64,000 nt of DNA from Symbiodinium sp. CCMP2592 (taxonomy: Eukaryota > Sar > Dinophyceae > Suessiales > Symbiodiniaceae): NCBI GenBank assembly GCA_905221615.1, contig CAJNDT010006007.1, positions 104,501 through 168,500 of the forward strand, in the 5' to 3' direction. Numbering within the stretch: position 1 is the stretch's first letter; every line of letters begins with the position of its first letter. The translations under genes and the position numbers were made by a program. Shown here piece by piece: positions 22,893-64,000 of the stretch. A model generated the notes under the pieces. It had not been told where the DNA came from. It did no database searches and saw only the letters and a list, made by a program, of their open reading frames with translations.

Positions 22893-22929
22893 TTGTGCCT
22901 GCACTGGGGTACTTCGGGGCTGTAGTAGA

Positions 22930-26131: not shown

Positions 26132-26134
26132 CAG
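26129..26134 (+). promoter_or_regulatory. Candidate UGA readthrough site, SDR-4 Gag/ORF3
   Basis: TGA CAG, after GAG. The downstream frame is open for 1,307 codons, and its first ATG (26456) lies some 108 codons in, beyond the conserved start of the domain. Independent initiation is therefore unlikely. Confidence 0.6.
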
Positions 26135-30055: not shown

Positions 30056-30077
30056 CGCATAGTCGAGAGGGGGAAGA

Positions 30078-30660: not shown

Positions 30661-30666
30661 CCCACC

Positions 30667-34645: not shown

Positions 34646-34648
34646 CTG
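34643..34648 (+). promoter_or_regulatory. Candidate UGA readthrough site, SDR-5 Gag/ORF3
   Basis: TGA CTG, after AAT GAG. ORF3 follows in the same frame; its first ATG comes about 30 codons later. Confidence 0.55.
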
Positions 34649-37581: not shown

Positions 37582-37737
37582 TGATGAACTTTGTTTTGCC
37601 CCAACGTACCCTGTTTTACCCTACCTTAGCGTAGTGCTTTTGAACGTTGTCCGCATGGCATGAGTACATGTGTGATTCCGTTTGCACGGTTGATCGCGAG
37701 GCCCAAAGTGTAGTGGAAAAGTGCATCCGTTTCTTCA
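37582..37737 (+). repeat. Copia 5' LTR
   Basis: 156 bp, TGATGAACTTTG...CGTTTCTTCA. Short for an LTR. The matching 3' copy is at 53481-53636. Confidence 0.95.
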
Positions 37738-37752
37738 TGGTAGCGGAGCAGT
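37738..37752 (+). promoter_or_regulatory. Copia primer binding site
   Basis: TGGTAGCGGAGCAGT begins directly at the LTR end. TGG pairs with a tRNA CCA tail, and TGGTAGCG resembles the initiator-Met tRNA sites used by Ty1-type elements. The exact tRNA cannot be named without the host's tRNA set. Confidence 0.75.
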
Positions 37753-37929
37753 GGACAAGGCAGTGCTCCACACACGTGGGGTTCGGAGTTTTCTTTCGGT
37801 TCCGTGTTCAGGGGCCATCGTGCGAGAAAGTCTCCTTTGCTGTTCGGGGCCGGGGTCTAGGGCGAGTCGTAGAGTAGAAGCGAGCCACGGTTTCATGCAA
37901 TCAGTGCTTGCGAATTCTTGAAGTGTGGA

Positions 37930-40900
37930 ATGATGGCGGCACAGCCTGTGCCAGACGATGACAGTATAGATGAGGAGCTCGGCCCGGCACCCAATCCTTT
38001 TGCTGCCTCGCCAACAGGCGGTGGAGAGATAGTTATGAATGCTGCAGACATTCGTGTTTTGATGCAGAGAATGACTGAAGCCACCCAAGCGGCGAGCTCG
38101 GCAGCGCAAGCAGCTTCTTACATGACAACAGCGAATTCCGTGAGACCTTTGAGTTTGGGAGATTTATCCAAAATTATTCCGAAGCCCGAAGCTTTTAAAG
38201 CTGTTTCGAGAGATGATGAGCTGGCCGCCTGGCCGTCGTGGGCCTGGGGCGTTGAGCAGTATCTTTCATGCTTGGATTTTTCATTTGGTGCAGAACTTCG
38301 AGATTTTGCCAAACAAGCTGAACCTGTGAACCTGAGTCTGGCGAGCGATGCTACACGCAACAGATCTAGGCTTTTATATGGACTGCTCAATGGGCTTTTG
38401 AACGAGAAGGGCCGACGCTTACTTCGAAGCGTCACTGAGCAGAATGGTTTTGAGGCTTGGAGGCTCCTTTCGAAAGATCTTATGCCAAAGACGAGAAACA
38501 GACTTTTAGCATTGCTGCGAACTATCAACGGCTGGCCTACTTTCGATATGCGACAGGGCATAGCACAACAACTTCTTCGTCTCGAGGCTGCCTTTGAAGA
38601 GTACGAACAGCTTGAGCCTGGAGGCCTTCCCGAGAACCACAAGATGGCTGCTCTCCTTAGCTGTCTGACCGGGCAGCTTCGGCAACATGCTAACGTCACC
38701 ATATCTGATGAGAGCCGCTATGCAGATCTTCGTGCGCTTGTGTTGCGTTGGGATGGGGCCCAAACCAAGTGGCAGTCAAGTGTTGCATTGAGCTATGGTT
38801 TGCAAGACAGCAACAAGGGTCTGCAGGACACTGGGCCCACACCAATGGAACTTGATAGGGTCGGCCAGAAGGGCGACAAAGGAAAGGACAAAGGAAAGGG
38901 AAAAGGAAAAGGAGACAAAGGCAAGAGCAAGGGCAAAGGATATGGCAATGGCAAGCCTGGCGGGAAGTATGACAACGGCAAGGGCAAGCAAGGAAAGCAG
39001 CAGCAACAACAGAACAACCAGCAGCAACAGCAGAAGGGCAAAGGCAAAGGCGAGTGTTGGAACTGCGGTCGCAAAGGACACGTAGCTCGTGATTGCTGGC
39101 AACCACGTCGGTCTGTGGATCAAGTGCAGGGTCAAGGCGAACAACAGCAGCCACAGCAGCAGCAGAGCAACCAGCAACAGCAGCAGCAAGGGCAAAGGAC
39201 AGTTTCAACAGCACCGCCGTCAGAGTATAGTGCGTATGGTGGTGTCCAGTCACAAGCTTCGACTGCTGTGCGCCGTGTGAGTGCTGAGCCTCTTTTGTTC
39301 GACATGTCAGAGCTGGAGCTCGATTTTACCTCTGGAGTGCGCATGGTTCAGGCGGTTGCGTCAGGAGTGCAGATTTTCAGGATGGACGCCAGAGACGATG
39401 ATGATACATTTCTTTGGTGCACGGCGCCCGAGAGTGCCGAGACCTGGCTGTGTGCAGAAGTGCGAGCCTTGAGATCAGTCCCCGAATTTTCGGTGAGCCC
39501 TACCACTGTTATTGTAGATTCTGGAGCCGACATTTCGTGTTTGCCGACTTCTTTTGCAACTTGCGGGCGCTCTGCCCGGTCAAGTCAGCAGATCGCTCTT
39601 TATGATGCTCAGGGCGGCGACCTCAAAGTGCATCAGCAAAGGATTGTGGACTTTGCTGTGACGGATCGCTCTGGCAGGGAGGTTACGATTCGAGAGAAGT
39701 GCCTTATTACTTCCGTGACCCAGCCTCTTTTGTCTCTAGGACGGCTTGTGAAGAGAGGTTGGTTTCCGCAGCGGCAGGGCGAAGAAATGCTCCTGGCACA
39801 CGGGCGCACGGGCTCAGAGCTCGACCTAGGCTTTCAGGGCAACAGCCTGGCACTTGAAGCATGCATTCGCAAAGTTGATTTTCCTGACCTTGATCCTGAG
39901 CAAGCTGCAGTTCGTGCTTTGTTGCAAGCCACTTTGAGCGAAGAGCTGCAGGCTGTTGATTACGGCTGGCAGGTCCTGAGAACAGGTCACATTATGTGGC
40001 GAGGCCGATCGACCTCCATGGTTGACCCGTCTATGATGGCCGGGATCTCGTGGCATTTCCGTTCTACTCTTACTCAGCGTGATAACAACAGCCCCTGGTT
40101 TGTGATTGAGAATTGCGAGCGCTGGGACGAGATGGAGGACCTCGAGGAGGAAGTGCCAAGCGGCACAGCGGTTGAGATGATCGTTCTTTTGCACACCGAG
40201 CCTGAAGCACTCACTGCTGCAGGCATTGATGTATCTGATTTCGTGATTCCTGCTCTGCCCGGAGCCGCTCACGATGATGCTGGTGGTATAGGCTCGGAGC
40301 CTGAATATGATGAGGCAATGGAGCCTTTAGAGCAGGACGGTTCAGTTGCGTTGCAAGACAGTGCTGAGCCGGATGTTGTTGAGCAGCGTGCATTGCCAGA
40401 TGTGGAAGAAAGAGAGGAGAGAGAGCAACCGAGTGACACGATTACGGTTCAAGATGTGGTGCTCACTGCGCAGAGCAGCATACATGCATTGAAAGCAGCG
40501 TGCGAGCACCTCGAGCTCAAGACCTCAGGTTCGAAAACGAGATTGTTTCAGCGCATCCAAGGCTACCTTGAGAAGCAGAAAATTGCTCTTGAGCAGGACA
40601 TGGCGACTGACGCGAGAAGCGGTGAGGAACGACGACCCAACATGCAAGCAGTGCCTCGTGCTCCGTCGGAGCAAGAACGACTACTGCATGAAGTTACACA
40701 TTTGCCTTTTGCTGCTTGGTGCCCCCATTGTATCAGCATGCGAGCGATGCCAGATAGAAGTGAAGCAGCGCAGCAAGAACCGCGTGATGTTCCATCCATC
40801 TCCTTCGACTTTTGCTTCACTGGGTACGATAAGGAGAGTGGTGAAATGAAGGCACACGGCAAACCAGCAGAGGGTGAGAGTGGTGAAGAGTTGTTGTGTT

Positions 40901-42810
40901 GTCTTGTGGCGCATGATAGCAGCACTGGGTCTGTGGTCGCCATTCCTTGCCAATCCAAGAGTACAACCAGATTTTTGGGAGTGGAGCTTATGCGCTTTAT
41001 ACATTCACTCGGGCATGCTACAGTAGAACTTCGTTGCGACAACGAGCCGAGCACAACATCACTTCAAACCGCTGTGGCTGGGGCAAGGAAAAGATTGGGG
41101 CTGCGAACCATTATTCGAAATCCTGCTATTGAGGCCCACGCCTCTAATGGGGCAGTGGAGAAAGCGGTGGATGTTATCAGGCGACTAGCAAACACAATGA
41201 TGAGCATGGTTCGGGAGCGGGTCGGCGTGAACTTTGGTGTTGATCATCCTCTTTTCGCCTGGTCCTTTGTTCATGCTGGGTGGACCCGTAATCGATTTGC
41301 GGCGGTGGGAGGACTCACTGCGTACGAGCGGGCAACAAATGCTCGTTACAATGGGCGATTGGTTCCTTTTGGCGAGCCAGTGTTTGGACAAATCACGGTG
41401 AAGAAGAAAGGGAATCCTAGATGGGTCCGATGCATTTTCCTCAGCAAAACAACAACCAACGACATGTACATTGTTTCCACGAGAGCTGGAGTGAGATTGT
41501 GTCGGTCAGTGCGTAGAACAACTTCTTCTTGGATGTTGGACAAGCCGCTGTATCAGGGATTGGCTGGCTTTCCATGGGACTACTCGGCAGGAGCGGTTGG
41601 AACGAGGTTGGTCCCGCCTGCGCGCACCCGCAGGCCACAGCTTGCGCCAACATTGGCGCCACAAGTGGCAGACGAGGCGGCTTCAGATCCGCCGACACCC
41701 GTGCCAGGTGATGCGGTTTCCTCTCCTGGGCCTGTGGTCCCAGGGCCGGCAGAGCCTTCAGTCGAAGGCGCAACAGTCAGTGTGCGACCCAGTGTGCCCC
41801 CGGATGGTGCGGTATTGGCTGAGAACCCTGTGGTTCCTTTGCCGGCGGGGCCGAATCCGGCCCTTGGGCAGATCGATGTCGAGATGCTTCGTACTCCTGA
41901 GGCGATGCTGCCACCGCTGGGTGATACGGCCCAGGGTTCGGCGGGGAGTCGTGATGGACCTCCGGAGGCAGGTGGTGATCGGAAGCGCATTCGTATCAGA
42001 GCAGTGCAGTTTGGCAGCCACAACCTTGATTATCATGATGAAGATGTGAACTTTGAGTATCCTGAGCTTGAGTGTGGTGAGCTTTGTGAACAGATCGAAG
42101 CAGATATCGAGAGTGAAGTCGCAACGGCAGGTGAGGACGTTGTGAGTGAGGGCACCACGGCTCCGAACGTACAGGGCCCTCTGAGTGATTATGAGCAGCT
42201 ACAGGAGCTGTTGTGGTACCCGGATGACGGGACCGGACCGCCGAAGCTTAGTGATTTCGAGCTTGGCAAGATTGACAGCATAGCCGATGAGGTTGAGATT
42301 TCAAGGTTGTCGCAAAAGCAAGTGATTCGGCCGGTTCGCGGCGAAGAAGAGACCCAGGGCATGAAACGATTGAGCACCAAAATGGTGCGGAGTTGGCGTA
42401 GCAAACGAAAAGGTGGCAAGGCAATGTGGTTGAGAAGATCACGGTTAGTAGCTCGAGAGTATAGGTGGCTTGAGGCCACGCGTGAAGGTCTCTTTTCGCC
42501 ATCCACTTCCAACTCGGTGGTGCGACTTATCCCTCTTTTGTTTCTCATGTGGCGCATGACGCGCCCTGGCACCGTCTTTGCGCTGGCTGCCATCGACATT
42601 AAGGATGCGTACTTAGAAGTGCCGCAGGTGGAACCGGTGTTAGCAGATTTACCGCGGGATTATTCCGGTAGTGGTCGATACATATTCCTGCGTTGTATCC
42701 CTGGTCAGCGGGACGGTGCACAGCGCTGGTTTGACTTTTATGTCAACTTCCTTCAAGAAAGGTCTTACCCTGGAGACGTGTACGGTGAGTCCAGCGGTGA
42801 TGAAAACTAA
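37930..42810 (+). CDS. Copia Gag-Pol: gag, zinc knuckle, protease, SAP-like, integrase, RT start
   Basis: 1,626 codons from ATG 37930. Gag is followed by a Lys/Gly and Gln-rich region and the knuckle CWNCGRKGHVARDC (CCHC). Protease: VIVDSGADISCLP. Before the integrase lies IHALKAACEHLELKTSGSK, a SAP-like helix pair. Integrase: WCPHC zinc site, core ISFDFCFTG (Asp), ELRCDNEPS (Asp) and SNGAVEKAV (Glu). RT begins with WLRRSRLVAREYRW and IDIKDAYLEVP (motif A) and goes out of frame after GDVYGE, just before the catalytic HVDD. A long acidic linker separates integrase and RT. One intact reading frame of this length suggests recent activity. Confidence 0.88.
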   Translation: MMAAQPVPDDDSIDEELGPAPNPFAASPTGGGEIVMNAADIRVLMQRMTEATQAASSAAQAASYMTTANSVRPLSLGDLSKIIPKPEAFKAVSRDDELAAWPSWAWGVEQYLSCLDFSFGAELRDFAKQAEPVNLSLASDATRNRSRLLYGLLNGLLNEKGRRLLRSVTEQNGFEAWRLLSKDLMPKTRNRLLALLRTINGWPTFDMRQGIAQQLLRLEAAFEEYEQLEPGGLPENHKMAALLSCLTGQLRQHANVTISDESRYADLRALVLRWDGAQTKWQSSVALSYGLQDSNKGLQDTGPTPMELDRVGQKGDKGKDKGKGKGKGDKGKSKGKGYGNGKPGGKYDNGKGKQGKQQQQQNNQQQQQKGKGKGECWNCGRKGHVARDCWQPRRSVDQVQGQGEQQQPQQQQSNQQQQQQGQRTVSTAPPSEYSAYGGVQSQASTAVRRVSAEPLLFDMSELELDFTSGVRMVQAVASGVQIFRMDARDDDDTFLWCTAPESAETWLCAEVRALRSVPEFSVSPTTVIVDSGADISCLPTSFATCGRSARSSQQIALYDAQGGDLKVHQQRIVDFAVTDRSGREVTIREKCLITSVTQPLLSLGRLVKRGWFPQRQGEEMLLAHGRTGSELDLGFQGNSLALEACIRKVDFPDLDPEQAAVRALLQATLSEELQAVDYGWQVLRTGHIMWRGRSTSMVDPSMMAGISWHFRSTLTQRDNNSPWFVIENCERWDEMEDLEEEVPSGTAVEMIVLLHTEPEALTAAGIDVSDFVIPALPGAAHDDAGGIGSEPEYDEAMEPLEQDGSVALQDSAEPDVVEQRALPDVEEREEREQPSDTITVQDVVLTAQSSIHALKAACEHLELKTSGSKTRLFQRIQGYLEKQKIALEQDMATDARSGEERRPNMQAVPRAPSEQERLLHEVTHLPFAAWCPHCISMRAMPDRSEAAQQEPRDVPSISFDFCFTGYDKESGEMKAHGKPAEGESGEELLCCLVAHDSSTGSVVAIPCQSKSTTRFLGVELMRFIHSLGHATVELRCDNEPSTTSLQTAVAGARKRLGLRTIIRNPAIEAHASNGAVEKAVDVIRRLANTMMSMVRERVGVNFGVDHPLFAWSFVHAGWTRNRFAAVGGLTAYERATNARYNGRLVPFGEPVFGQITVKKKGNPRWVRCIFLSKTTTNDMYIVSTRAGVRLCRSVRRTTSSWMLDKPLYQGLAGFPWDYSAGAVGTRLVPPARTRRPQLAPTLAPQVADEAASDPPTPVPGDAVSSPGPVVPGPAEPSVEGATVSVRPSVPPDGAVLAENPVVPLPAGPNPALGQIDVEMLRTPEAMLPPLGDTAQGSAGSRDGPPEAGGDRKRIRIRAVQFGSHNLDYHDEDVNFEYPELECGELCEQIEADIESEVATAGEDVVSEGTTAPNVQGPLSDYEQLQELLWYPDDGTGPPKLSDFELGKIDSIADEVEISRLSQKQVIRPVRGEEETQGMKRLSTKMVRSWRSKRKGGKAMWLRRSRLVAREYRWLEATREGLFSPSTSNSVVRLIPLLFLMWRMTRPGTVFALAAIDIKDAYLEVPQVEPVLADLPRDYSGSGRYIFLRCIPGQRDGAQRWFDFYVNFLQERSYPGDVYGESSGDEN

Positions 42811-43693
42811 GGAAGGGCCTTTGATGCTACACGTGGATGATAATTTGGTTCTGTGTCCTTTGACATGGTTGCATGATACCCTGGTACCGCTGATAAATCA
42901 CGATTCCAGGCCACAGTGGAGATTGCGTACCGCGTCGGTGATCAAATCAGCTTCCTCAAACGAGTGCACACGCTGACTGAGACCGGCATGAAGATTGCAA
43001 TCAGTGATCAGTATGCGAGAAGTATGGCAAAGATCCTTGAAATTCGTGGTGGAACGGCTCAAACCCCAGACCTTGCAGAGTTCAGTGGGCATGACACGTC
43101 ACAGGTGTTGTCCGAGCAGCAAGCATCCAAGTACAGATCAGTGATCGGTATTGCGCTTTACATTTCGGCCGACAGGCCAGACATTGCACACAGCGTCAGA
43201 AAGCTCTCTGCTGTGATGACACGTCCGACTGCTTTGTCATGGCGTGCTGCAATTCGATTGACCCAGTACATGTTGGCCACATCCTCATATGCATTGCATC
43301 TTGAACCCGGGGAGCCGGGGACCTCTATGTTGCATGGATGTGTTAGTGCAGGTGGCGATCTGGTGGAGTGCTTCACGGATGCCGACTGGAGCGGCAGTAA
43401 GGCCGATCGCAAATCAATCGGATCAGCCACCCGTTGCATCAACGGTGCGGTGGTTTACTTTGCCACGAGGACTCAGCGATCAGTGTCCCTCTCCTCGATG
43501 GAGAGCGAATGGTATGCCTGTGTATCCGGATGCTGCGATGCATTATTCATTCGTGAGGTCTGGGAGTTCATCTCAGGCCAACCTTCGGAGATGCACGTGT
43601 TGCTTGATAACCAATCTGCTAGGGCATTGGCTAAGCGCCAAGGTGCAGCCAAGCAAGCAAAGCACATCGCAGGGAGATTGCTATGGGTCCAAG
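42780..43693 (+). pseudogene. Copia RT end and RNase H (frameshifted), up to SDR-6
   Basis: The RT catalytic motif LMLHVDDNLVL lies in one frame (about 42780-42895). The rest, from about 42910 (ATVEIAYRVGD) to 43693, lies in another. Copia-type RNase H landmarks: VIGIALYISADRPDI, ECFTDADWSG, SLSSMESEWYA, LLDNQSARAL and KHIAGRLLWVQ. SDR-6 interrupts the codon after WVQ; 52585 continues the same frame. Confidence 0.85.
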
Positions 43694-43911
43694 GATCTCA
43701 GCAGACAAGCGCGCGCCATCTGCGATCCCTGTTTCATAAAAGGACAGCGAGCTCGATGCGAGCATTTTCAAACATTGGTTTCAAAATTTGGCATGCTTGA
43801 TTTTACACTTGTGCTGATTTTGCAGTGACTTTTGCATCTCCGTGATTGGTCTTGGAATGCAACATGTGTATGCAGCTCAGTGCTCGAGCTGAGCTTTGGA
43901 AGAATTTTCTG
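43694..43911 (+). repeat. SDR-6 A1 repeat
   Basis: 218 bp, GATCTCAGCAGACAAGC to AATTTTCTG, repeated at 51898-52115. Confidence 0.95.
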
Positions 43912-43965
43912 GAAGACTCCGCTAGGGGCTTGTAACGGCGTCCTAGCAGGTCTCAGGCCCCTTAA
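43912..43965 (+). promoter_or_regulatory. Leader hairpin and CTAGCAG motif after A1
   Basis: AGGGGC and GCCCCT flank a loop that carries CTAGCAG at 43943-43949, 31 bases after A1. Equivalent to the motif in SDR-3, -4 and -7. Confidence 0.45.
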
Positions 43966-44015
43966 GTGCTTGCTTTAGGGCGTCACGACTCCCCGCTATA
44001 CGTGCGGGGCGTCAG

Positions 44016-44309
44016 ATGGACTTCGGCGACGCGCTCGCCGACGGGTCTTCTCATCGCTCCGAGGACAGTTCCACTAGCACTCGCGAGCTTCACAGTCAGC
44101 ACATTTACGATCTCCAATTGGAGGTCAACGCCCTGAGGCTTCAGGTTCAAGCCCTCAGGTCCGATTTGCAGACTTTGGAGGAGTCCCTTGCGCGCGTCTG
44201 GGTGAACCAGATGGGTCATCACCAACGCCTCTCGTGGCTTGAGGGGATCATCCAGGGCTTGCGCACCGCCTGCAGAGCCTTTCTTGAACCGCGCGAGCAA
44301 TCTGCTTGA
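44016..44309 (+). CDS. SDR-6 ORF0, small coiled-coil protein
   Basis: 97 residues. The Ser-rich start MDFGDALADGSSHRSEDSS is nearly shared with SDR-7 ORF0 (MDFGDALSAGSSPRGASDS). Then comes a heptad-like helix (YDLQLEVNALRLQVQALRS, DLQTLEESLA) and a Trp/Leu segment (HQRLSWLEGIIQGL) that SDR-4 also has. It stops 16 bases before the recombinase ATG, so translation may be coupled or the two may come from one transcript. The function is unknown; the pattern implies a coiled coil. Confidence 0.65.
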   Translation: MDFGDALADGSSHRSEDSSTSTRELHSQHIYDLQLEVNALRLQVQALRSDLQTLEESLARVWVNQMGHHQRLSWLEGIIQGLRTACRAFLEPREQSA

Positions 44310-44325
44310 GGGAGCCGTAGCTTTC

Positions 44326-46116
44326 ATGGCCTCCGGCTCCGTGCCCCCTGCATCTTCTGAAGGTGGGGTTTCTGAGGCAGGTGACAGTCGCCGGAGGGAT
44401 GCCGCCATGGCCTTTGGGTCGTACGAGGCACATTTGGCGTCTTGCATGCGCAAGTTCAATAAGACTGGGTTTGTCCGATCCTGGGATTTTAAACTTAAGC
44501 CTTCTGCCAATTTGTTTGCCGGTATGGCACGTGCCAGCGGGCCCATGCCGCCTGTCATGTCTGTGCCAGTGCCCAAGATGGTGTCTTCTCAGGTTACCGT
44601 TGCTTCTGTTGTCAAGCTTGCCCTGGGCAGGGTCAGGCTGCAGGATTCTTGGAGTGTGCACCTTGACAAGAAGCTGCGTGCTGCCATTCAGAAGTGGGTT
44701 TCTATCGTCCTTGAGGATCCACTCACCTTTGATGTTGGCCGCAGGTGTGCTGCCGCGTCCTGCCAGGATTCCGCAGTCTCGCAAGGTTTGCTGCACACCT
44801 TTTCGGGCAAAGCTGCGGGTACCCTGCACAATCGTGCGGGACCGTTGCTCCGTTTTGTGGCGTGGGCCAAGAAGCGGCGTCTCCAGCCGCTGCCACTGAG
44901 AGAGAAAGATGTGTATGAGTTCCTGCTTGATTTGGAGGATTCCAGCGCGCCGTCTTTCGGCAAGGCACTCATGTCCTCGTTGGCGTTTTGCAAGTTCGTT
45001 TTGGGTGCTGAGTCTTTCTCTGATTCCCTTTGCAGTGGCCGCCTTACAGGGCTTGCGCGTGCCTCTTTTCTTAAAAAGAGGAAGAGGCGGCAGAAGCCGC
45101 CACTCACCGTTGCTATGGTCAAGAGATTGGAGCGCCTTGTTGTGGATGAGTCAGATAATGATGTTGACAGGCTGTGTGCAGGCTTTTTCTTACTCTGCAT
45201 TTATCTTCGTGCTAGATACAGCGATGGCCAGGCCCTGATGAATCTGGTTTTGGATGAGCCGGACTCTTTCATGGGACCACTTGCAGGGTACTTCCAAGGT
45301 GAGACTTCGAGGACGAAGACCAGTTTCTCCTTGGAGAGGAAAACAGCATTGCTTCCTATGGTGGGGCCATTGTGCGGGGTGGCGTCCGTGAGGACGTGGA
45401 TGAGCCTTCGTGAGGACCTCGCCATTCCTGAGGGGGAAGATTTTCCTCTCCTGCCCAGCCGTGGTCAGGAGGGCGGATGGTCGGGTGTTCCGCCCACGGC
45501 CACTGTAGCAGCTGGTTGGTTGCGCGGGATTTTGTCTGCCAGAGGTTTCCCTGAAGCCTCAAAGCTTGGTACTCACAGCTGTAAGGCTACGACTTTGTCT
45601 TGGATGTCAAAGTATGGTGTTGACGCGCTGCACCGGAGGATTTTGGGGTATCACAAGGCTCCGCAGGATGAGATGATGCACATCTATGGGCGTGACAATG
45701 TTGCGCCTGCTCTGAGGTCTCTTGAGTACGTGCTCGCCGATATAAGGATCGGCAAGTTCCTCCCGGACACCACGCGTTCGGGCTATTTCCCAACTGATCC
45801 TGAGCGCGAACCAGGTCCGGAGTTCAATGATGAACCGTCGGCCTCGGAGGCGTCATTGGACGAAGAGGACAACGTTCAGGACCTTCGTGCTGAAGAGGCT
45901 GCGGCTGATGAGATCATACCGCCTTGGGCCGAGTTAGCTGTGGGAGACCCTGATGCCCATGTGTACATCAGGCACATTACTTCCCGCAAGCTTCACCGTC
46001 TTGCTGATGAGGGCGGGAATCGGCTTCGCTGTGGGAAGAGGTGCTCGAAGAAGTTCGAGCGTCTTGCTGAGAGGCCTAGGTTTATGGCAGACATGTGCCA
46101 AAACTGTTTCAAGTGA
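44326..46116 (+). CDS. SDR-6 tyrosine recombinase (intact)
   Basis: 596 residues from ATG 44326. Integrase-like N-terminal helices are followed by the catalytic set: YLRARYSDGQ with Arg about 297, KTSFSLERKTALLPM with the hairpin Lys, THSCKATTLSW with His417 and Lys in place of the usual Arg, LGYHK, and IYGRDN with the nucleophile Tyr454. After DTTRSGYF, an acidic linker leads to a C-terminal domain with YIRHITSRKLHRL, LRCGKR and MCQNCFK, also present in SDR-3, -4, -7 and -8. The enzyme would insert circular cDNA and replaces the DDE integrase of LTR elements. Confidence 0.9.
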   Translation: MASGSVPPASSEGGVSEAGDSRRRDAAMAFGSYEAHLASCMRKFNKTGFVRSWDFKLKPSANLFAGMARASGPMPPVMSVPVPKMVSSQVTVASVVKLALGRVRLQDSWSVHLDKKLRAAIQKWVSIVLEDPLTFDVGRRCAAASCQDSAVSQGLLHTFSGKAAGTLHNRAGPLLRFVAWAKKRRLQPLPLREKDVYEFLLDLEDSSAPSFGKALMSSLAFCKFVLGAESFSDSLCSGRLTGLARASFLKKRKRRQKPPLTVAMVKRLERLVVDESDNDVDRLCAGFFLLCIYLRARYSDGQALMNLVLDEPDSFMGPLAGYFQGETSRTKTSFSLERKTALLPMVGPLCGVASVRTWMSLREDLAIPEGEDFPLLPSRGQEGGWSGVPPTATVAAGWLRGILSARGFPEASKLGTHSCKATTLSWMSKYGVDALHRRILGYHKAPQDEMMHIYGRDNVAPALRSLEYVLADIRIGKFLPDTTRSGYFPTDPEREPGPEFNDEPSASEASLDEEDNVQDLRAEEAAADEIIPPWAELAVGDPDAHVYIRHITSRKLHRLADEGGNRLRCGKRCSKKFERLAERPRFMADMCQNCFK

Positions 46117-46561
46117 TGTGCGCACTTGTGGAAGCCGGTACACGCGGTGCTCACCGGACTCACTCGGTGATGGTTTGATGTGCTTGCGCACTTGTGGACT
46201 GCCGGACTTCGCGGCTTGGAAATTGGATGAGCTGGACCCACTCGGCTCAATTGTCTGACCCTTGCGGGTTTCACGATGTGCGCGAGTGCGTGATGCCACC
46301 GGTCCACGCGGTGGCACATGTACGAATTTCGGGCACTGGCCTGGTTTTGATGTGGCACCGACTTACTTGTCTGGTGTCATGCGAGTTTTTAGAACATGCT
46401 GAACACGAGTGTCGTGTGAAATACTTGCCGGGCGCCGTCAAGTATGTGTGATCGTGCTGAACTTGTGTCCGACAGTCAGCGGTTTGCAAGTGCATTTGTC
46501 GTTTGCGGTGAGTGTGCACTTTGGCTGGAGACTCCATAGTGCCTTGACAGGTTTTTGTGCC
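46117..46561 (+). other. Recombinase-gag intergenic region with hairpin
   Basis: 445 bp without a gene. It contains recurring GCGCACTTGTGGA segments and an 8-bp inverted repeat, TGCCACCG...CGGTGGCA (46294-46316), with a 7-base loop. It could hold an internal promoter or RNA signal for Gag expression; no known motif is recognised. Confidence 0.4.
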
Positions 46562-47758
46562 ATGGCCGTCACAGAGAGCAAGGCAAACTTCTCTTCGAGG
46601 GCGAAGGCTCTTGGATTGGAGGATCCAGTGCTGGTGAAGTTCGTTGACGCTGGCATTGATTGCATGAGCAAGTATGCTTTCTTGAGCTCATACGTGCCCG
46701 GGAGCACGGATGAGAGCCCATTCACTGCTGCCATCGTTAAGGTGCTTGGGCGTGACCCTTCGATTGCGGAGCTCAGTGTGCTTCGCCGCTTGCTGCATGA
46801 GAGCTACAATCTAACTGTGTCTGAATTACAATCACAGGTTGAAAGGACCGATGACTCTGCTCCGAGAAAGCTCGCAGCGCCCGACCGGGCCGACAGGTTG
46901 CAGCGACAGCAGGTTCGGCTGAGTGGTTTGACGATCCACGGCCCGACTCTTCCGGGTCATGCCGTGATCGATAAGTGCGTTCAGATGTATGAGGACAACG
47001 TGCTTCATTACTTGCCGCCTCAGTCGTGCCCTTGCCGTGATGATGAGGTCAAGTTCAAAAAGGATCGCGATGATAAGATGTTGTCCGTTGATGGTGCCGG
47101 TCATGTGTCTCTACGCACCCAGGTTGCAAAGGTTGATGCTGATGTGTCCTCAGACCTTCTCCTCAAGCTGGCATTGACCCGTCGAGGTTTGGCCCTAGAC
47201 CAGGCAGGGATAGTCACCTTTTCGGAGCACGAGCGGTGGGTGGAAGCACTTTTTACCGCGCGTTTCAGGGATCCACCTGATAACTATGCACGTGTGACGC
47301 TGCAGCAGCTTATGCAGGCAGATCGGCAGCTGTTTGTTGAAGCAGCAGATCGCACTCGGCATGGAATCCAACTTGTTTCTGACGGCAAGCCTGTTGATAA
47401 GATTTGGAACGAGGCAATGAATTGCAATAATGTCACACACCTTTTGCAGCCTTTGGTCGCAGCCCCTCCGGCTCCTTTCAGGCCTGGCCCGTACGATGAC
47501 CGCAGGCCCTGGAAAGGCAAGGGGAAAGGCAAGGGTAAAGGAAAGGGTAAGAACAATGTCCGTATGCCCGCTGAGCTTGCAGACGGAGTTCCATCCACGA
47601 CTCGCGGATTGCCAATCTGTTTCGACTTTAACTTAGGCCGTTGCCAGAGAGCTGTATCCAATGGGAAGTGCGAGCGAGGACTCCATGTCTGCTGCATCAA
47701 AGGATGTTTCAAGAGAGATCATGGATACACGGCGTGTCCCAAACGCAAGAAGGAGTGA
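46562..47758 (+). CDS. SDR-6 Gag (intact)
   Basis: 398 residues from ATG 46562, the start that aligns with SDR-4 and SDR-8 Gag. Order: helical N-terminal domain (MAVTESKANFSSRAKALGL, KYAFLSSYVPGST), conserved TRRGLALDQAGIVTF, a basic GKGKGKGKGKGK linker and the Cys/His module (LPICFDFNLGRCQ, CERGLHVCCIKGC, HGYTACP). Expected to form the particle and bind RNA. It ends AAG GAG TGA, with ORF3 in frame. Confidence 0.88.
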   Translation: MAVTESKANFSSRAKALGLEDPVLVKFVDAGIDCMSKYAFLSSYVPGSTDESPFTAAIVKVLGRDPSIAELSVLRRLLHESYNLTVSELQSQVERTDDSAPRKLAAPDRADRLQRQQVRLSGLTIHGPTLPGHAVIDKCVQMYEDNVLHYLPPQSCPCRDDEVKFKKDRDDKMLSVDGAGHVSLRTQVAKVDADVSSDLLLKLALTRRGLALDQAGIVTFSEHERWVEALFTARFRDPPDNYARVTLQQLMQADRQLFVEAADRTRHGIQLVSDGKPVDKIWNEAMNCNNVTHLLQPLVAAPPAPFRPGPYDDRRPWKGKGKGKGKGKGKNNVRMPAELADGVPSTTRGLPICFDFNLGRCQRAVSNGKCERGLHVCCIKGCFKRDHGYTACPKRKKE

Positions 47759-47761
47759 CTA
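47756..47761 (+). promoter_or_regulatory. Candidate UGA readthrough site, SDR-6 Gag/ORF3
   Basis: TGA CTA, preceded by GAG and followed by GG. UGA-CUA is a well-known leaky stop context in eukaryotic viral and cellular genes. The downstream frame is open for 1,395 codons. Confidence 0.65.
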
Positions 47762-50700
47762 GGTGTGCAATCCATGGACCAAACGACTGACGAGAAAGAT
47801 GCTGCGCCGAGCGGTGAGCCTCTCGTGCGCTCTTCTTCTGAATGCAGTGTCCCTGAAGGGGAGGTTATGCATGCAGGTCCAAATGGGTTGCCTTCCGCTG
47901 AAGAATTCGCTTCTAGTCTGATTGGGAGGTGGATTGAACAGGCTGATGTTTTGAAGCTTTTCGATTGCCTCCCGAAGGCTGCGCCGCAACGCGGCTCCGG
48001 TGGCGGCATTTCATTTACCACTGGGGCCTTTGCCAAGGTCAAGGTGGGGCTTAGGAGCAATGTCGCTGTTTTTCCAAAGTCCACGCAGGTGCTGGCTGCT
48101 TTTGTAAGGCAGTCTGCTCCTGCCCACAAGTTCACAACCGTCGTGCTGTTTGATGGTGTTCGCACGGCCCCGCATCGTGATCAGCAGAATTCCTTCTTGC
48201 CTAATTTGGCCATTCCCTTGTCCCGTTTTACTAAAGGTTCAATTTGGGTGCAATCTAGCAAGGGTCCCCACACTCGGACTGTTGATGGTGCAACCCTTCA
48301 AGGGGTGGCATTGCCTGTGTCGGATGGCCCTGTCCTGTTTGATGCACGCAGGCAGACGCACCTCACTGATTCGTGGCAGGGCAGGAGGGTCATTTTGGTT
48401 GCTTTCTCTATTTCAGCCTTTGATAAGCTGTCTCTCGAGGCTTCGCAATGCTTGATTTCACTTGATTTTGCCTTGCCAACCGAGCCAGAGGTCGAGCACT
48501 TTCGTGAGCACCCCCAGCTGCCTGCTCGCCTGCCGTGGCCGCCGCGTTTCCCTCTGCTGTCGAGTGCTTCAGCAACCAAGGCTGTTACCGAGACATTGGT
48601 TCCCAAAGAACCACTTTTTCTTGAGCTATGCGCCGGCACCGCCATGCTTTCTCGCTGCTTTCGTGAAGCGGGTGTGCCTGTCATGCCCATTGATCACCAG
48701 CAAAACCGCCATCATCCGTTGGCGCAGGTCTGCAATCTCAGCTTGACCGAGGAGTCAACTTGGGTCTTCTTGCGCAATTTGGTGCGTGATCATCCTATAC
48801 TCTTCGTGCACGCTGCCCCGCCTTGTGGCACGTGCTCCGCAGCGCGCAACATAAAGCGGACAGGGGTGTCCGTGGCACCGCTTCGCTCTCCTGAGCATCC
48901 CATGGGTTTGCCTTCGCTGACTGGTGTCAGCCTTGACAAGGTCCAGGCTGCAAACAAAATTTACGTTGGCCTTGCCCAGTTTCTTGATTTGCTTTGCAGG
49001 TCCAACATCCCATGGACAGTTGAGAATCCTGAGTCAAGCATGCTTTGGCAGCTGCCCTGTTTTGCTCATTTGGTAAAGAATTTTCCGAGGGTCAATTTCG
49101 ACATGTGTTGCTATGGTGGTGCACGATTGACTCACCGTACGCTGCTTACATCTTGTGATGCCATCGAACATTTTCGCCAGCGCTGTCCGGGTGGGCACGA
49201 CCACCTTCCGTGGAAGCCACAGCGCCGCGCTGATGGCACGATGTCTTTTCCCACTGCTCAGGAGGCAGCCTACCCCAGGCCCTTTTGCCAACAGTTCGTG
49301 GCGCTGGTCTTTAGGCATTTGGGTCGTCCCTTGCCTGTGCATCCTACTGCGGCCACGCCTGCCGCTGCTGCCACTTCTTCTGCTCGGCAACCTCGTGGGC
49401 GTAAACTGCCTCCTGTTATGCCTGAGTTCAAGCGTGTGCTTGTCTACCAAGTTCATGCTCTGCCGCCTGTTGATTCCAAGCGGTGCATTTTGCAGCCCCT
49501 CCGCGATGCTCCTTCTGGATCCAAACTTCTCTCTTCGACCTCTTTACTGCTAAGCGGGGGTGGTTCTGGGTCTTCGTTGAAGTTTTCCCGGGATGAGGTT
49601 GTGCACTCGGATAGTTCTAGCAGTGATGCCAGCAGTTGCGAATCCGTGCACGGTTCTGACAGTGATGCCTCCTGTGCGCGGACCTTGGAGCCTGCTTGCG
49701 ATGCGAGAGCTTTTGAGGTTCGCCTTGGTGTGTACGCCTCTCCCGATGAATTTCTTGATGGGTGCAGAAGGGTTACTCATCCTTTCGATCACCTGCATGC
49801 CGCTCCTGATCGTCTCAAACAATGCATTTTTGACATGTTGGTCAATGGCCCGACCTGGGTTGCGCAACGGAGGGCGGCCCTACTCAGGAAGTGGACGTCC
49901 TGGGCCTCCGACCTCGAAGGCGAGGAACGTGCTTTGAAGGAGGCGCTTGATCCTCAGGTCGCCAAGGTGTTGCAAGGAAAAAGGCTAAAGCTTCTGGAGC
50001 GTATTGCCGGCTCCCTTGGTTGGGTTGACATGAAGGTTTTCGATGAACTGCGCAATGGTTTTGACTTGGTGGGCCATCACGAACACACTGGAGTTTTCGC
50101 TCACGAGCCCAGGCCACCTAAGTTGGCCGAAAGTGATTTCATTAGTGCCGCACAATTTCTGCAGCCCGCTTTACTTGGAAAGATTCGTGCTTCTGCATCC
50201 GATTCGAATGCTCGCGAGCTGTGGGACAAGACTCTTGATGAGGTGGCTGATGGCATTCTTGAGGGACCGCTTTCTGCTGAGGAGTTGTTGTCTCGACACG
50301 GGCCGTGCTGGCTCCCTGCTCGCCGGTTCGGCGTTGAACAGACTTCCTCTGCCGGCCGTAAACTTAGACCTGTTGATGATTTCACTGAGAACAAGGTCAA
50401 TTTGGCTTTCGGCTCGATGGATAAGCTTGATCTTAACGCGCTTGACGAGTTGATTGGGATCAGCAGGTTGTGGATTCGGGTTCTGAACGGGCCGCCCGAT
50501 TTCACAATCCCTCTCTCAACTGGTGAATCCTTGAGTGGTCGTCGGCATGACGGCTGGAAGAAGGTGGGGTGCGAGCCTCTCCTCACTACCTTGGACCTCC
50601 GAGCGGCTTATAAGCAATTTGCGGTTTCTGCGAAGTCGCGGGCCCTGGCAATAATCGCATTGCTTGACCCTTCGACTGCTGAGCCTGGACTCTTTGAGTC

Positions 50701-51943
50701 GAAGGCCCTACCTTTCGGGAGTTCCGCTTCGGTGCTTCGCTTCAATCGCCTTGCGCGCCTATTCTGGCGCATCGGCGTGGAGCTGTGTGTGCCTTGGTGC
50801 AACTTTTACGATGACTTCCCTGTCATGTCTCCGAGTGGCATTGCTGACAACACCATGGAGACCATGATTGCCCTGTGTAACCTGTTGGGGTTTAGGTTCG
50901 CCTCCGATAAGCTTTCCCCCTTTAGGGCCCAGGCCACGATGCTTGGAGTTGAGGTTGATTGCTCTCGCTTTTCTGAAGGCTTAGTTCTTGTCCGGAACAA
51001 GCCGGGCCGGGCTGAAGAGCTCATTGCTTCTCTTGACGAAGTCCTTGAGGAGGGATTGATTTCTAGGAAGCGGTATCTAAGCTTAATGGGTCGCCTGCAC
51101 TACACTGACTCGTACATCCTTGGCAAGGCCGGACGCCTCTTCTTGGCAGAGGTTAGGTCTTGGGCAAAGGCGCACTCGGGACCTGAGTTGAAGCTTGATG
51201 ATTGTGTTCGGCGGTCTCTTGAGAGATTGCTGAACCGACTTCGTTGTGGCACTCCTCGCCATGTCCCTTGTTCCGTGGCCGATCACGTTGTACACATTTA
51301 CACCGATGGGGCGAGCGAAGGAAGCTCCCACACCGTGGGAGGGGTGCTGATGTTTCAGAATCAGGTTCACACTTACTTTGGTTGCTCGGTCCCTGCTGTC
51401 CTGGTCTCGCGCTGGGCCGAATCCATGTGTCACTTCATAGGGCCCATAGAGGCCTACGCCGTTGCCGTCGCGAGGAAGGCTTGGCACCAATTCATCGCGG
51501 GACACAGATGTATCTTCTACATTGATAATGTGCCTGCACAAGATTCTTTCATCAAGGGCACCTCTGCCAATCATCACGTCAGGGACATATTGTTGTCTTT
51601 CGAGGCGGCCGAAGAGCTAAGTGCTTCTTGGTCCTGGTTCGCCCGTGTTGCCAGCCAGAGCAATGTGGCCGACGCTCCGTCACGTGGTGACTTTGCATCC
51701 TTGATTAAGCTTGGTTGTCGTAGGGTTAGTCCCTCGTGCCCCCTGCCGTGTTTCGCCCCGTGCAAAATGAGTGAATGTGCGATTGCATCATATGCCGCAT
51801 TATTTGGAATCATGTTCATGCTTGTGATTGGATTCATTTGCAAATATACCTTGAGTCCTTTACCTTGGCATATGTTTGAAAATCCGATTATGAAAAGGAT
51901 CTCAGCAGACAAGCGCGCGCCATCTGCGATCCCTTTTTCATAA
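47759..51943 (+). CDS. SDR-6 ORF3: 2OG oxygenase, C5-MTase-like, RT, RNase H polyprotein (intact)
   Basis: 1,389 residues if started at ATG 47774 (numbering used here). Oxygenase: PHRDQQN with H134 and D136, KGSIW, and RRQTHLTDSWQGRRVIL with H196 and R204/205. Methyltransferase: FLELCAGTAMLS (282-293), HAAPPCGTCSAAR with C351, WTVENPESS (414-422), then CCYGGARLTHRTLL, matching the place of motif VIII. RT: LDLRAAYKQF (D941), LPFGSSASVLRF and FYDDFPVM (D1013-1014). RNase H: YTDGAS (D1178), FYIDNVP and SNVADAPSR. The frame runs on through B1 into A2 and adds a hydrophobic segment. All catalytic residues named are present. Confidence 0.9.
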   Translation, partial: LGVQSMDQTTDEKDAAPSGEPLVRSSSECSVPEGEVMHAGPNGLPSAEEFASSLIGRWIEQADVLKLFDCLPKAAPQRGSGGGISFTTGAFAKVKVGLRSNVAVFPKSTQVLAAFVRQSAPAHKFTTVVLFDGVRTAPHRDQQNSFLPNLAIPLSRFTKGSIWVQSSKGPHTRTVDGATLQGVALPVSDGPVLFDARRQTHLTDSWQGRRVILVAFSISAFDKLSLEASQCLISLDFALPTEPEVEHFREHPQLPARLPWPPRFPLLSSASATKAVTETLVPKEPLFLELCAGTAMLSRCFREAGVPVMPIDHQQNRHHPLAQVCNLSLTEESTWVFLRNLVRDHPILFVHAAPPCGTCSAARNIKRTGVSVAPLRSPEHPMGLPSLTGVSLDKVQAANKIYVGLAQFLDLLCRSNIPWTVENPESSMLWQLPCFAHLVKNFPRVNFDMCCYGGARLTHRTLLTSCDAIEHFRQRCPGGHDHLPWKPQRRADGTMSFPTAQEAAYPRPFCQQFVALVFRHLGRPLPVHPTAATPAAAATSSARQPRGRKLPPVMPEFKRVLVYQVHALPPVDSKRCILQPLRDAPSGSKLLSSTSLLLSGGGSGSSLKFSRDEVVHSDSSSSDASSCESVHGSDSDASCARTLEPACDARAFEVRLGVYASPDEFLDGCRRVTHPFDHLHAAPDRLKQCIFDMLVNGPTWVAQRRAALLRKWTSWASDLEGEERALKEALDPQVAKVLQGKRLKLLERIAGSLGWVDMKVFDELRNGFDLVGHHEHTGVFAHEPRPPKLAESDFISAAQFLQPALLGKIRASASDSNARELWDKTLDEVADGILEGPLSAEELLSRHGPCWLPARRFGVEQTSSAGRKLRPVDDFTENKVNLAFGSMDKLDLNALDELIGISRLWIRVLNGPPDFTIPLSTGESLSGRRHDGWKKVGCEPLLTTLDLRAAYKQFAVSAKSRALAIIALLDPSTAEPGLFESKALPFGSSASVLRFNRLARLFWRIGVELCVPWCNFYDDFPVMSPSGIADNTMETMIALCNLLGFRFASDKLSPFRAQATMLGVEVDCSRFSEGLVLVRNKPGRAEELIASLDEVLEEGLISRKRYLSLMGRLHYTDSYILGKAGRLFLAEVRSWAKAHSGPELKLDDCVRRSLERLLNRLRCGTPRHVPCSVADHVVHIYTDGASEGSSHTVGGVLMFQNQVHTYFGCSVPAVLVSRWAESMCHFIGPIEAYAVAVARKAWHQFIAGHRCIFYIDNVPAQDSFIKGTSANHHVRDILLSFEAAEELSASWSWFARVASQSNVADAPSRGDFASLIKLGCRRVSPSCPLPCFAPCKMSECAIASYAALFGIMFMLVIGFICKYTLSPLPWHMFENPIMKRISADKRAPSAIPFS
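51746..51897 (+). repeat. SDR-6 B1 repeat
   Basis: 152 bp, CCGTGTTTCGCCCC to TGAAAAG, repeated 687 bp downstream. In the ORF3 frame it encodes a hydrophobic stretch. Confidence 0.95.
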
Positions 51944-52115
51944 AAGGACAGCGAGCTCGATGCGAGCATTTTCAAACATTGGTTTCAAAATTTGGCATGC
52001 TTGATTTTACACTTGTGCTGATTTTGCAGTGACTTTTGCATCTCCGTGATTGGTCTTGGAATGCAACATGTGTATGCAGCTCAGTGCTCGAGCTGAGCTT
52101 TGGAAGAATTTTCTG
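51898..52115 (+). repeat. SDR-6 A2 repeat
   Basis: 218-bp copy of A1 (G/T difference near 51932). The ORF3 stop TAA lies in it at 51941-51943. Confidence 0.95.
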
Positions 52116-52432
52116 CCCACCCACCACTCCCTGTGTGCTGCTCTGGCTCTACGTGCCATCGAGCTTGCCAACCTTTCATGTCGTGTTTCGAGCTCTCCAC
52201 GAGCTCCGCTTCACTTGTGTTCCGCCGCACTCGCTTTGCGTGCCGCCGGTGTTGAGCTCTCTTGTGAGTTCCACCTGTGCCTGCCGTAGGTGTAGCTGCG
52301 TAGTTGTAGCCGTAGGCTGTGCCAAGTACGCTGTGCTCAGCTGCTTGCTGTCTACTCTTGCAGTCCGTTTCACTTGTGGTAGTCCGTAGCTGGCGTACGT
52401 GCTACTGCACTGGTCCCACCCTCCTCGCCAGA
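52116..52432 (+). other. Long A2-B2 spacer with C-tracts at both ends
   Basis: 317 bp of C/T-rich sequence without a gene. It starts CCCACCCACCACTCCC and ends with CCCACCCTCC before B2, whereas other copies have a single C-tract in 6-37 bp. It may be a secondary insertion between duplicated C-tracts or a family-specific spacer. Confidence 0.5.
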
Positions 52433-52584
52433 CCGTGTTTCGCCCCGTGCAAAATGAGTGAATGTGCGATTGCATCATATGCCGCATTATTTGGAATCAT
52501 GTTCATGCTTGTGATTGGATTCATTTGCAAATATACCTTGAGTCCTTTACCTTGGCATATGTTTGAAAATCCGATTATGAAAAG
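52433..52584 (+). repeat. SDR-6 B2 repeat (element right end)
   Basis: 152-bp copy of B1. It ends TGAAAAG, and the copia frame resumes at 52585. Confidence 0.95.
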
Positions 52585-53405
52585 ATTATGTGAAGCGTCA
52601 CGTTTTCAAAGTGATGCCGGTGAGTTCGGCGTATAACCTCGGTGACATCGGGACCAAGGCTTTGGCAAAGGCTAGACTGCGCGCATTGATGTATATGCAC
52701 AATTTCATTGATGCTTCGAGCGATGAGAGGATTGGAAAGTTTGAGTATGAGCAGATGCAGCAGCAAGAGTATGTGAAGGCACAGATTAAGAGAGTGAAGA
52801 AGAGCGTGAACACTTCCACGAAGCTTCATTCGAACATCTTCATGGTCATGTGCAACCTGATGCCGCTGTTGACTGATGCAACAAAGCTTTCTACTTCTAC
52901 TTCTACGGTGAGTATGGGATATGCAAGCTACATGTTTCCACTTTGCATGGTTCTTTTGGTGGCGCTTTTCGCTGCACGGGCCTTGGGCCTGAACGACTTT
53001 TCGACTTTGCGCTTGAGCATTGGTTTTCAGTATGCACCGCAAGCTTTGGATATGAATGGCTATGTTATGCAGTGCTTTGCATTTGCCTTTATGCTTATCG
53101 GCTTCATGCAGGGCGTGAGTGCTGAGCAGTACGCAAGCTTGGCATTGATGATCACATGCGGTGCTCTGTGGAATGAGAACAGAAAATTGAGAGCCCAATG
53201 CGTTGTGGTCCATTCGAGGCCACATGAGGGTCCTTTAGTGGCCCATGGAGGTAGAATTCTGGAAAACCCAGCGGCCTTAGTTGTACAGGTGCCGGAAGAA
53301 GTGTTCGTAACGACACGTGGAGTTTGCTTTCACAAGGGTACCTGTGGCCACGTACGTGGTAAAGCACCTAGGAGTGTGCGTCGTTGTTTGGATTGTTTTG
53401 GCTAG
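52585..53405 (+). CDS. Copia Pol C-terminus with membrane-spanning extension
   Basis: Frame-continuous with 43693. The first part (FKVMPVSSAYNLGDIGTKAL) is the usual end of copia RNase H. About 230 extra residues follow: a charged helix (QMQQQEYVKAQIKRVKKS), hydrophobic segments (YMFPLCMVLLVALFAA, CFAFAFMLIGFMQG, ASLALMITCGALW), and a Cys/His end GVCFHKGTCGHVRG...RRCLDC. Two or three membrane spans are plausible. Envelope-like reading frames are known downstream of pol in some copia elements, but no fusion peptide or signal peptide is visible, so the role is unknown. Confidence 0.65.
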
Positions 53406-53470
53406 CGTACAAGCAGTCCTGTTGGCCACAGAAGTTCAAGCGATTGACCAATGTCGGAGTACATGGTCTA

Positions 53471-53480
53471 TCGGGCGGGG
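53471..53480 (+). promoter_or_regulatory. Copia polypurine tract
   Basis: TCGGGCGGGG directly before the 3' LTR. The purine run primes plus-strand synthesis in LTR elements. It is short and G-rich. Confidence 0.55.
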
Positions 53481-53636
53481 TGATGAACTTTGTTTTGCCC
53501 CAACGTACCCTGTTTTACCCTACCTTAGCGTAGTGCTTTTGAACGTTGTCCGCATGGCATGAGTACATGTGTGATTCCGTTTGCACGGTTGATCGCGAGG
53601 CCCAAAGTGTAGTGGAAAAGTGCATCCGTTTCTTCA
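53481..53636 (+). repeat. Copia 3' LTR
   Basis: 156 bp, identical by eye to 37582-37737. It is followed by the second AAAAC target duplication. Confidence 0.95.
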
Positions 53637-62316: not shown

Positions 62317-62431
62317 AACGTGCCTCTCCGAAAGACTCAAGTACTCTTCGTGTGTGCATGCTTGCACTGTCGGTGCTACTGTCGTGGAAGCCTCTCCGCT
62401 TGAGTGTTTTGTGACTCAGACACAGGGCATC

Positions 62432-63706: not shown

Positions 63707-63709
63707 CTA
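63704..63709 (+). promoter_or_regulatory. Candidate UGA readthrough site, SDR-8 Gag/ORF3
   Basis: TGA CTA, preceded by GAG, the same hexamer as SDR-6. The 98 codons that follow to the window end contain no stop and no ATG. Confidence 0.65.
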
Positions 63710-64000
63710 GTCGTTGCAACCTCCGGCCAGGTTGAGGCTGGAAGGATCACTGGCCAGAATGACGACGGGCTGGGATACACTTTTTCTCCGGTGCCGGTGA
63801 CAGCACAGGACCTTTCTTCTGCTGAATCGCTGGCCGCCCAGTGCCTGAATCTTGGCTTTGCAAGTTTTGCACAGCTTCGCGAGCTCAGTGCTCGCTTGCC
63901 GGCGGACTCTGTGGGGGCACCTTCAGGCCAACCTGTTGCTCCTGCGGATCCCAAATCTTTTACTTCTGGAGCCTACGTGCACCACGACAAGAACGGGCTC
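63707..64000 (+). CDS. SDR-8 ORF3, N-terminus (runs off window)
   Basis: 98 open codons after the Gag TGA. DPKSFTSGAYVHHDKNGL at the end aligns with TAPKSFTSGAYVHQAKAGL of SDR-2 (1731 on), which lies at the start of the oxygenase-like domain. There is no Met codon before this conserved segment, so the domain can only be translated by readthrough, frameshifting or a non-AUG start. Confidence 0.7.

Follow-up and report, generated by a model that had tools for sequence, protein, structure and literature searches.

The analysed window, a stretch of 64,000 nucleotides from Symbiodinium sp. CCMP2592, contains a DIRS-like (tyrosine-recombinase) retrotransposon of 8.9 kb, which spans positions 43691-52584 and carries split direct repeats in the arrangement A-ORFs-B-A-B (Table 1). 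The proteins closest to those of this genome come from Symbiodinium. Its parts follow in the order A1, recombinase, Gag, an in-frame UGA, Pol, B1, A2 and B2. The first-pass annotation had placed a retroelement polyprotein at 47759-51943, which is right for Pol but covers only part of the element. The spacing between A2 and B2 is 317 nt in this element versus 6 nt in a second one at 22268-30983. When the flanks are joined (43690 to 52582), an open reading frame is restored across the insertion site, and only AAG is common to both ends of the element, which at this one site examined indicates insertion without a long target-site duplication.

Table 1. Positions of the focal element's repeats, ORFs and Pol domains, and of the other copies in the window
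Feature	Positions	Strand	Remarks
Repeat A1, left element end	43691-43911	+	99.5% identity across 221 nt with 51895-52115
Tyrosine-recombinase-like (YR) ORF	44206-46116	+	RxR ... HSxK ... LGYH ... YxRD boxes
Gag-like ORF, C-terminal Cys/His-rich knuckle	46403-47758	+	Homologous Gag in other window elements
Pol ORF: OG - MT - RT - RNase H	47759-51943	+	First ATG at 47774
OG, predicted 2OG-Fe(II) dioxygenase domain	47945-48478	+	Pol residues 63-240; AF2, Foldseek/VIA, motif counts
MT, compact C5-methyltransferase-like domain	48614-49303	+	Pol residues 286-515; AF2, Foldseek/VIA, phrog_757
Reverse transcriptase (RT) + RNase H	49724-51709	+	Pol residues 656-1317; RVT_1, motifs, relatives
Repeat B1, overlapping Pol 3' end	51746-51897	+	100% identity across 152 nt with 52433-52584
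Repeat A2	51895-52115	+	Pairs with A1
Repeat B2, right element end	52433-52584	+	Pairs with B1
Second element, A1-ORFs-B1-A2-B2	22268-30983	+	OG+MT+RT+RNase H Pol at 26132-30055
Third element, holds 15032 copy	5956-19708	+	A1 5956-6189, A2 19136-19369, B1 18837-19138, B2 19407-19708
5'-truncated copy: OG, MT with PPC, RT/RNase H	1749-5464	+	Pieces in different frames
Broken copy (35119): Gag end, OG, MT, RT fragment	34046-37584	+	Fragmented

The recombinase-like ORF was recognised by its R...HxxK...H...Y boxes, which a motif comparison found largely kept in relatives; searches of Pfam, NCBIfam, PHROG and PDB gave no sequence match to a recombinase. The Gag-like ORF, for which a Pfam search found no match, stops at TGA followed by CTAG, and Pol continues in the same frame. 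Another Gag in the window, at 57344, terminates with TGA ACAC; it has neither the knuckle end nor a Pol behind it and was for this reason left out of the Gag-Pol count.

Pol of the focal element comprises 1394 aa without an internal stop, and the order of features reported by the first-pass annotation (oxygenase signature, methyltransferase motifs, RT, RNase H) was found in full within this single ORF. The RT matches Pfam RVT_1 at E 3.7e-5, which lies under the family's gathering score, while the RNase H-like region was recognised by motifs. Together, RT and RNase H contain FYDDF at 50804, YTDGA at 51299 and ADAPSR at 51668. At least 80 relatives of the RT/RNase H region were found among the 7993 candidate proteins scored, these being the candidates with most shared words.

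The AlphaFold (AF2) model of the oxygenase-like domain (OG) has a pLDDT of 94.3, and its best 50 Foldseek matches in the PDB, like the best 50 listed by VIA, are all 2OG-Fe(II) oxygenases, their class being assigned by title or by known identity. By its predicted double-stranded beta-helix fold, OG matches the 2OG-Fe(II) oxygenase superfamily. Its signature consists of H139-x-D141-x-x-N144, G160/W163, H201 and R210; among the 29 OG domains with full coverage, 28 retain the predicted iron triad HxD...H and the distal Arg, and within HxDxxN the relatives keep H in 30/32, D in 31/32 and N in 31/32 cases. By sequence, OG gave no informative match in Pfam, NCBIfam, PDB or PHROGs; tblastn against phages reached E 4 at best, which is the level of chance, and a protein search with the OG region alone returned six matches, with no relative beyond those found before. 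As for the family within the superfamily, NgTET1, TET2, ALKBH5 and PHD2 are nearly equal in score among the best-listed structural matches. HxDxxN had to be rejected as proof of TET membership, because it occurs as HRDLHN in TET2 and as HVDNPN in PHD2, so that the motif does not assign OG to TET/JBP. Sequence profiles likewise gave no TET/JBP assignment: no Pfam family appeared at E ≤ 10 in any of the 10 members searched, nor did a PDB profile search at this threshold give a TET match.

The methyltransferase-like domain (MT) is modelled with a pLDDT of 85.5, and the best 50 PDB matches of the model are all C5-cytosine methyltransferases, so that the prediction points to a class I MTase fold nearest to the C5-MTases. 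Its PPC (C356) and ENP (E422-P424) motifs are both intact. Of 92 relatives covered at motif IV, 74 retain its Cys and 18 have lost it, and the motif VI Glu is kept in 91/96. PF00145 was not detected at E ≤ 1 in any of 28 members, and sequence searches of Pfam, NCBIfam and PDB yielded no informative match; the only informative sequence-profile matches were phage DNA MTase families, the focal MT matching phrog_757 at E 1e-6. When viral contigs were scanned with the MT alignment, 10 pattern matches appeared, and prokaryote genomes scanned with its sequence gave 27; none of these was a relative, and tblastn of MT against plasmids gave no match. A tblastn match, gp7 of Streptomyces phage Karp, shares the small size (215 aa) and the motif order (LDLFCGGGG...ASPPC...IENV...RHRLFE) with MT, but it is a free-standing phage gene with PPCQ, whereas MT lies inside Pol and has PPCGT. 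The succession of OG and MT signatures is more than a chance motif, because the same OG residues recur in domains merely 22-64% identical to the focal one and both models are confident and point to one class each. The structure prediction that the first-pass annotation had recommended as a check gave matches to the expected enzyme class for both domains.

The same annotation ascribed both signatures in one ORF to four copies (SDR-3 to SDR-6), and the same with one lost residue to SDR-2; we matched SDR-2 to SDR-6 to the copies of the window by left-to-right order, which is an assumption. The statement holds for the 26132-30055 copy, where both signatures are intact, and for the focal one. It fails for the other two, apparently counted as intact: in the 15032 copy, whose RNase H lies in a separate ORF, A stands in place of the PPC Cys and ANP in place of ENP, and in the 35119 copy V replaces the MT Cys and AHP replaces ENP, OG being intact in both. 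In the 1749 copy the first His of OG is indeed replaced (LRND) and PPC is kept, but the pieces lie in different frames. Altogether, PPC...ENP is intact in three of the five copies (1749, 26132, 47759) and HxD in four.

Across the 29 OG-bearing proteins, a count which includes close relatives (e.g., P0047/P0048, P0093/P0100, P0016/P0058) and so does not consist of independent cases, the MT Cys is kept in 16 and lost in 13. Judging from these sequences, OG can apparently do without a functional MT on the same protein, and this weakens the earlier suggestion that the element could write marks and then remodel them. The OG residues are kept in all 12 fully covered OG-bearing proteins without the MT Cys, which occupy at least three separate places in the RT tree, and when the Cys-less P0016 is compared with the Cys-bearing P0001, P0006 and P0007, identity is lower for MT (32-38%) than for OG (41-54%) and RT (47-49%). 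Both observations would fit OG as a stand-alone eraser, which removes or oxidises host silencing methylation on element copies, MT being separate and not always catalytic. Such a role would also agree with the enrichment of CH methylation on transposable elements, 10 of the 15 transcribed elements lacking it at their 3' end, as described in PMC5890265, and with the view, given in PMC12730594, that TET-bearing fungal transposons oppose methylation. We nevertheless regard it as rather unlikely: an eraser beside the apparently intact writer of 16 proteins needs explaining, and the association between OG presence and MT Cys loss (Fisher p 9e-5, raw counts) vanishes in seven phylogenetically independent pairs (same direction 2.3, opposite 2.0 on average). 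Moreover, MT is not simply decaying in the Cys-less groups, because it is no less conserved there than OG (P0016-P0047, MT 54% and OG 37%; P0087-P0093, 61% and 56%; P0087-P0085, 35% and 29%). The idea that OG presence causes MT decay was rejected on the same two grounds.

With slightly better than even confidence, we favour the explanation that Symbiodiniaceae harbour a DIRS-like retrotransposon lineage whose Pol bears a predicted 2OG oxygenase and a C5 methyltransferase before RT-RNase H, the activities, substrates and purpose of which we infer. What is established is the layout of the element with its repeats, the folds as seen in predicted models, the conservation of the catalytic residues and the recovery of the target ORF. 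One can suggest that Pol probably arises as a Gag-Pol fusion through leaky termination at the UGA and would travel with the element RNA; RT-RNase H would then make cDNA, which the split repeats would allow to close into a circle. MT may methylate cytosines in this cDNA, and OG may oxidise a base, most likely 5-methylcytosine or thymine, either in the cDNA or in host DNA at the insertion site. DNA marked in this way might resemble the modified host genome or escape silencing, and the recombinase would integrate the circle where a short core sequence matches. With these predicted activities the element may mark its own DNA. The interpretation offered in the first-pass annotation is, as a whole, partly supported.

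It seems improbable that OG acts on RNA, as an element-RNA demethylase comparable to the AlkB found in orchid Gypsy elements, or on protein in the manner of a prolyl hydroxylase, rather than on DNA: the domain is fused to a DNA-type C5-MTase and RT, NgTET1 is among its top structural matches, and proteins named JBP1/TET are among the matching viral models. That OG, MT or both lack catalysis and instead help to bind nucleic acids or to fold Pol is very improbable, since the OG Fe(II) and 2OG residues are near-invariant even at 22% identity to the focal domain and the MT Cys is mostly retained, although a binding role of MT would fit the Cys-less proteins, among which P0016 and P0047 still share more than half of their MT residues.

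A Pol with methyltransferase-like and oxygenase-like domains offers defined, expressible candidates for the enzymes by which dinoflagellate nuclei gain or lose modified bases. Copies that have both domains intact, copies without the MT Cys and copies in which OG was not found form a natural series and can be compared directly. Should OG oxidise bases of DNA, the element would be a retrotransposon endowed with TET-like activity. A bolder extension of the favoured explanation, to which we give little credence so far, is that oxygenases carried by such retrotransposons contribute to the 5-hydroxymethyluracil or 5-hydroxymethylcytosine of dinoflagellate DNA. Insertions would then arrive pre-marked, the polyprotein having introduced host-like modified bases while it reverse-transcribed the element.

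Retrotransposon-borne C5-methyltransferases of dinoflagellates, mentioned by the first-pass annotation, are indeed published as SymbioDIRS-Dnmt3 (de Mendoza et al. 2018, PMC5890265). According to that paper, these elements share with ours the occurrence in Symbiodinium sensu lato, the A-coding-B-A-B repeats, the recombinase in its own ORF and the cytosine-methyltransferase domain in an RT-bearing Pol. However, PF00145 served there to count the DNMT genes, those of DIRS elements belonging to the Dnmt3 clade, whereas the MT described here has no PF00145 match (0/28 members); the words "dioxygenase" and "TET" have no occurrence in the main text of PMC5890265. DIRS elements with a Dam-like methylase (PMC6338049, PMC5890265), which belong broadly to the same class of tyrosine-recombinase retrotransposons, carry a DNA methylase as well, but the methylase is of the adenine rather than the C5 type, and the consulted parts of these sources mention no oxygenase. 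Orchid Ty3/Gypsy elements (PMC9289625) carry, like ours, a retrotransposon-borne 2OG oxygenase, an AlkB-like 2-ODD; it resides in an additional ORF of a Gypsy element and resembles AlkB m6A RNA demethylases, and the abstract mentions no methyltransferase. Transposon-borne oxygenases of the nucleic-acid type proposed here are known from fungi, where TET/JBP proteins ride on Kyakuja, Zisupton, EnSpm, PHISTA and others; according to PMC12730594 the carriers are DNA transposons, which the first-pass annotation had mentioned in general terms, and some Helitrons, while the focal element is a retrotransposon. In the literature searched we found no description of an oxygenase and a methyltransferase on one element.

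The RT tree used above, a quick tree with long branches flagged and rows of fewer than 330 aligned residues omitted, has 102 rows, of which 27 bear OG, 22 were scored as OG-less by the rule that MT starts no earlier than residue 80, and 53 are unscored; a database protein in which OG was not found need not lack it, since many are 5'-truncated. For OG itself, 31 rows were used, those under 100 residues being omitted. An exchange of the OG module between elements, as judged from these alignments, is doubtful: P0016/P0058 and P0047/P0048, a group picked after tree inspection (AU p 0.048), are 63-66% identical in RT versus 36-37% in OG.

The stop-free Pol ORF is part of a repeat-bounded, DIRS-like element. 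The first-pass annotation had proposed that, in several copies within the window, a single ORF joins a predicted 2OG-Fe(II) dioxygenase (OG) domain and a C5-methyltransferase-like (MT) domain to RT and RNase H. This pairing and domain order proved correct for the focal copy and for the one at 26132-30055. The remaining copies do not carry both signatures intact in one ORF: two have lost the cysteine of the MT PPC motif (C356 in the focal Pol) and one other has lost the first His, while the two Cys-less copies have RNase H in another ORF or are fragmented, respectively. In the text excerpts of the open-access literature searched, we found no description of a retroelement with both domains. The closest published systems found are SymbioDIRS-Dnmt3 (PMC5890265), orchid Gypsy elements with AlkB (PMC9289625) and the TET/JBP carried by fungal DNA transposons (PMC12730594). 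In Breviolum, multimapping reads are reported to be enriched about twofold by 5-hmU (PMC11071213).

Coordinates of the focal element, its host and other retroelements in the window
Feature	Position	Remark
Repeats A1 and A2	43691-43911; 51895-52115	99.5% identity
Repeats B1 and B2	51746-51897; 52433-52584	100% identity
Recombinase-like ORF	44206-46116	Upstream of Pol, within focal element
Gag-like ORF	46403-47758	Upstream of Pol, within focal element
Pol ORF	47759-51943 (+)	1394 aa
MT domain of Pol	48581-49438	
Gag-Pol junction TGA	47756, 26129, 15029, 34643, 63704	Next bases CTAG (twice), CAGT, CATC, CTGG
Second element	22268-30983	Layout matches focal element
Third element	5956-19708	Repeat pattern as in focal element; interior larger and interrupted
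Host element	37582-53636	ORFs 37873-42810 (1645 aa) and 42877 onward
Repeats flanking the host ORFs	37582-37737; 53481-53636	Identical, 156 nt

Five window elements retain sequence on either side of the Gag-Pol junction, and in each of them one TGA, with C as the next base, divides Gag from a Pol in the same frame. TGA CTA is a strong readthrough context, and TGACTAG occurs only twice on the forward strand of the window, both times at Gag-Pol junctions, and nowhere on its other strand. The shared frame and the single TGA-C at five junctions suggest that Gag-Pol is made by UGA readthrough; the alternative is that Pol is initiated at the ATG at 47774. Readthrough would place OG, MT, RT and RNase H on the Gag-Pol protein and, thereby, on the packaged RNA and cDNA.

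The nearest relatives of the focal Pol belong to Symbiodinium, and P0002 from Symbiodinium sp. CCMP2592 has 97% identity across the queried OG-MT region; other named relatives come from S. natans, CCMP2456, Cladocopium goreaui and Effrenium voratum. With RT as the only query, at least 80 relatives were found among the 7993 candidates scored; of these 80, MT was detected in 74, OG in 23 and both in 22, OG being undercounted because many of these relatives are 5'-truncated. In the RT tree, rooted at its midpoint, OG is present on each of the two main branches and changes state eight times or more, which argues that OG is either old or transferred within this lineage. Outside the window, the relatives P0016/P0058 and P0047/P0048 share 63-66% identity in RT and only 36-37% in OG; possibly, OG modules were exchanged between these elements.

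Among proteins in which the MT Cys column is covered, 16 of those with OG still have the Cys and 13 have lost it; for those without detected OG, the numbers are 58 and 5. This association is significant on raw counts (Fisher p 9e-5) and disappears in a comparison of independent pairs. OG catalytic residues are kept in all 12 fully covered OG-bearing proteins without the MT Cys and in one partly covered, at no fewer than three separate places on the RT tree, and thus OG apparently does not need its own protein's MT to be active. Domain identities are mixed. For the Cys-less P0016 against the Cys-bearing P0001, P0006 and P0007, MT identity (32-38%) is below that of OG (41-54%) and RT (47-49%), while for P0001-P0007, with Cys in both, the domains are level (45-48%). 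Within Cys-less groups, MT conservation is not below that of OG (P0016-P0047, 54% versus 37%; P0087-P0093, 61% versus 56%; P0087-P0085, 35% versus 29%). The Cys-less MT is retained, perhaps for binding. A near-invariant C-x3-H-x-H (Pol residues 476-482; H in 91/95 and 92/96 relatives) lies between MT motif VIII and the C-terminal helix, and is possibly a metal site within a small target-recognition region.

The focal element is nested inside another retroelement. Joining its flanks at 43690|52582 restores the ORF from 42877, which is then open for 545 codons, with the junction reading LWVQDYVKRHVFKV. A join to 52585, three bases further, also leaves the frame open (544 codons). Moving the join to 52584 or 52581 changes the frame, and a stop then follows about 17 codons beyond the junction. 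As the ends are read, they have only AAG in common, and this short core together with the restored host frame fits recombinase-type integration. The recombinase-like ORF is unrecognised by every profile library searched, and its putative assignment is based on RxR, HSxK, LGxH and YxRD boxes, which are mostly kept among relatives. The host sequence looks like an RNase H of the Copia type, and we take the host element to be Copia-like. Its 1645-aa ORF gave, in Pfam, a zinc knuckle (PF00098), a weak SAP match below the curated cut-off and nothing else; the identical repeats that flank the host ORFs may be the long terminal repeats of this element.

The window is retroelement-rich. In the third element, degenerate tandem repeats of the GCGCGAAG type form long arrays (10084-15163) that overlap long, probably spurious ORFs on both strands. 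A further element starts at the right window end (62189-64000), with Gag, TGA CTAG at 63704 and then an open frame; at the window's last bases, this frame seems to enter the start of an OG domain (SFTSGAYVH).
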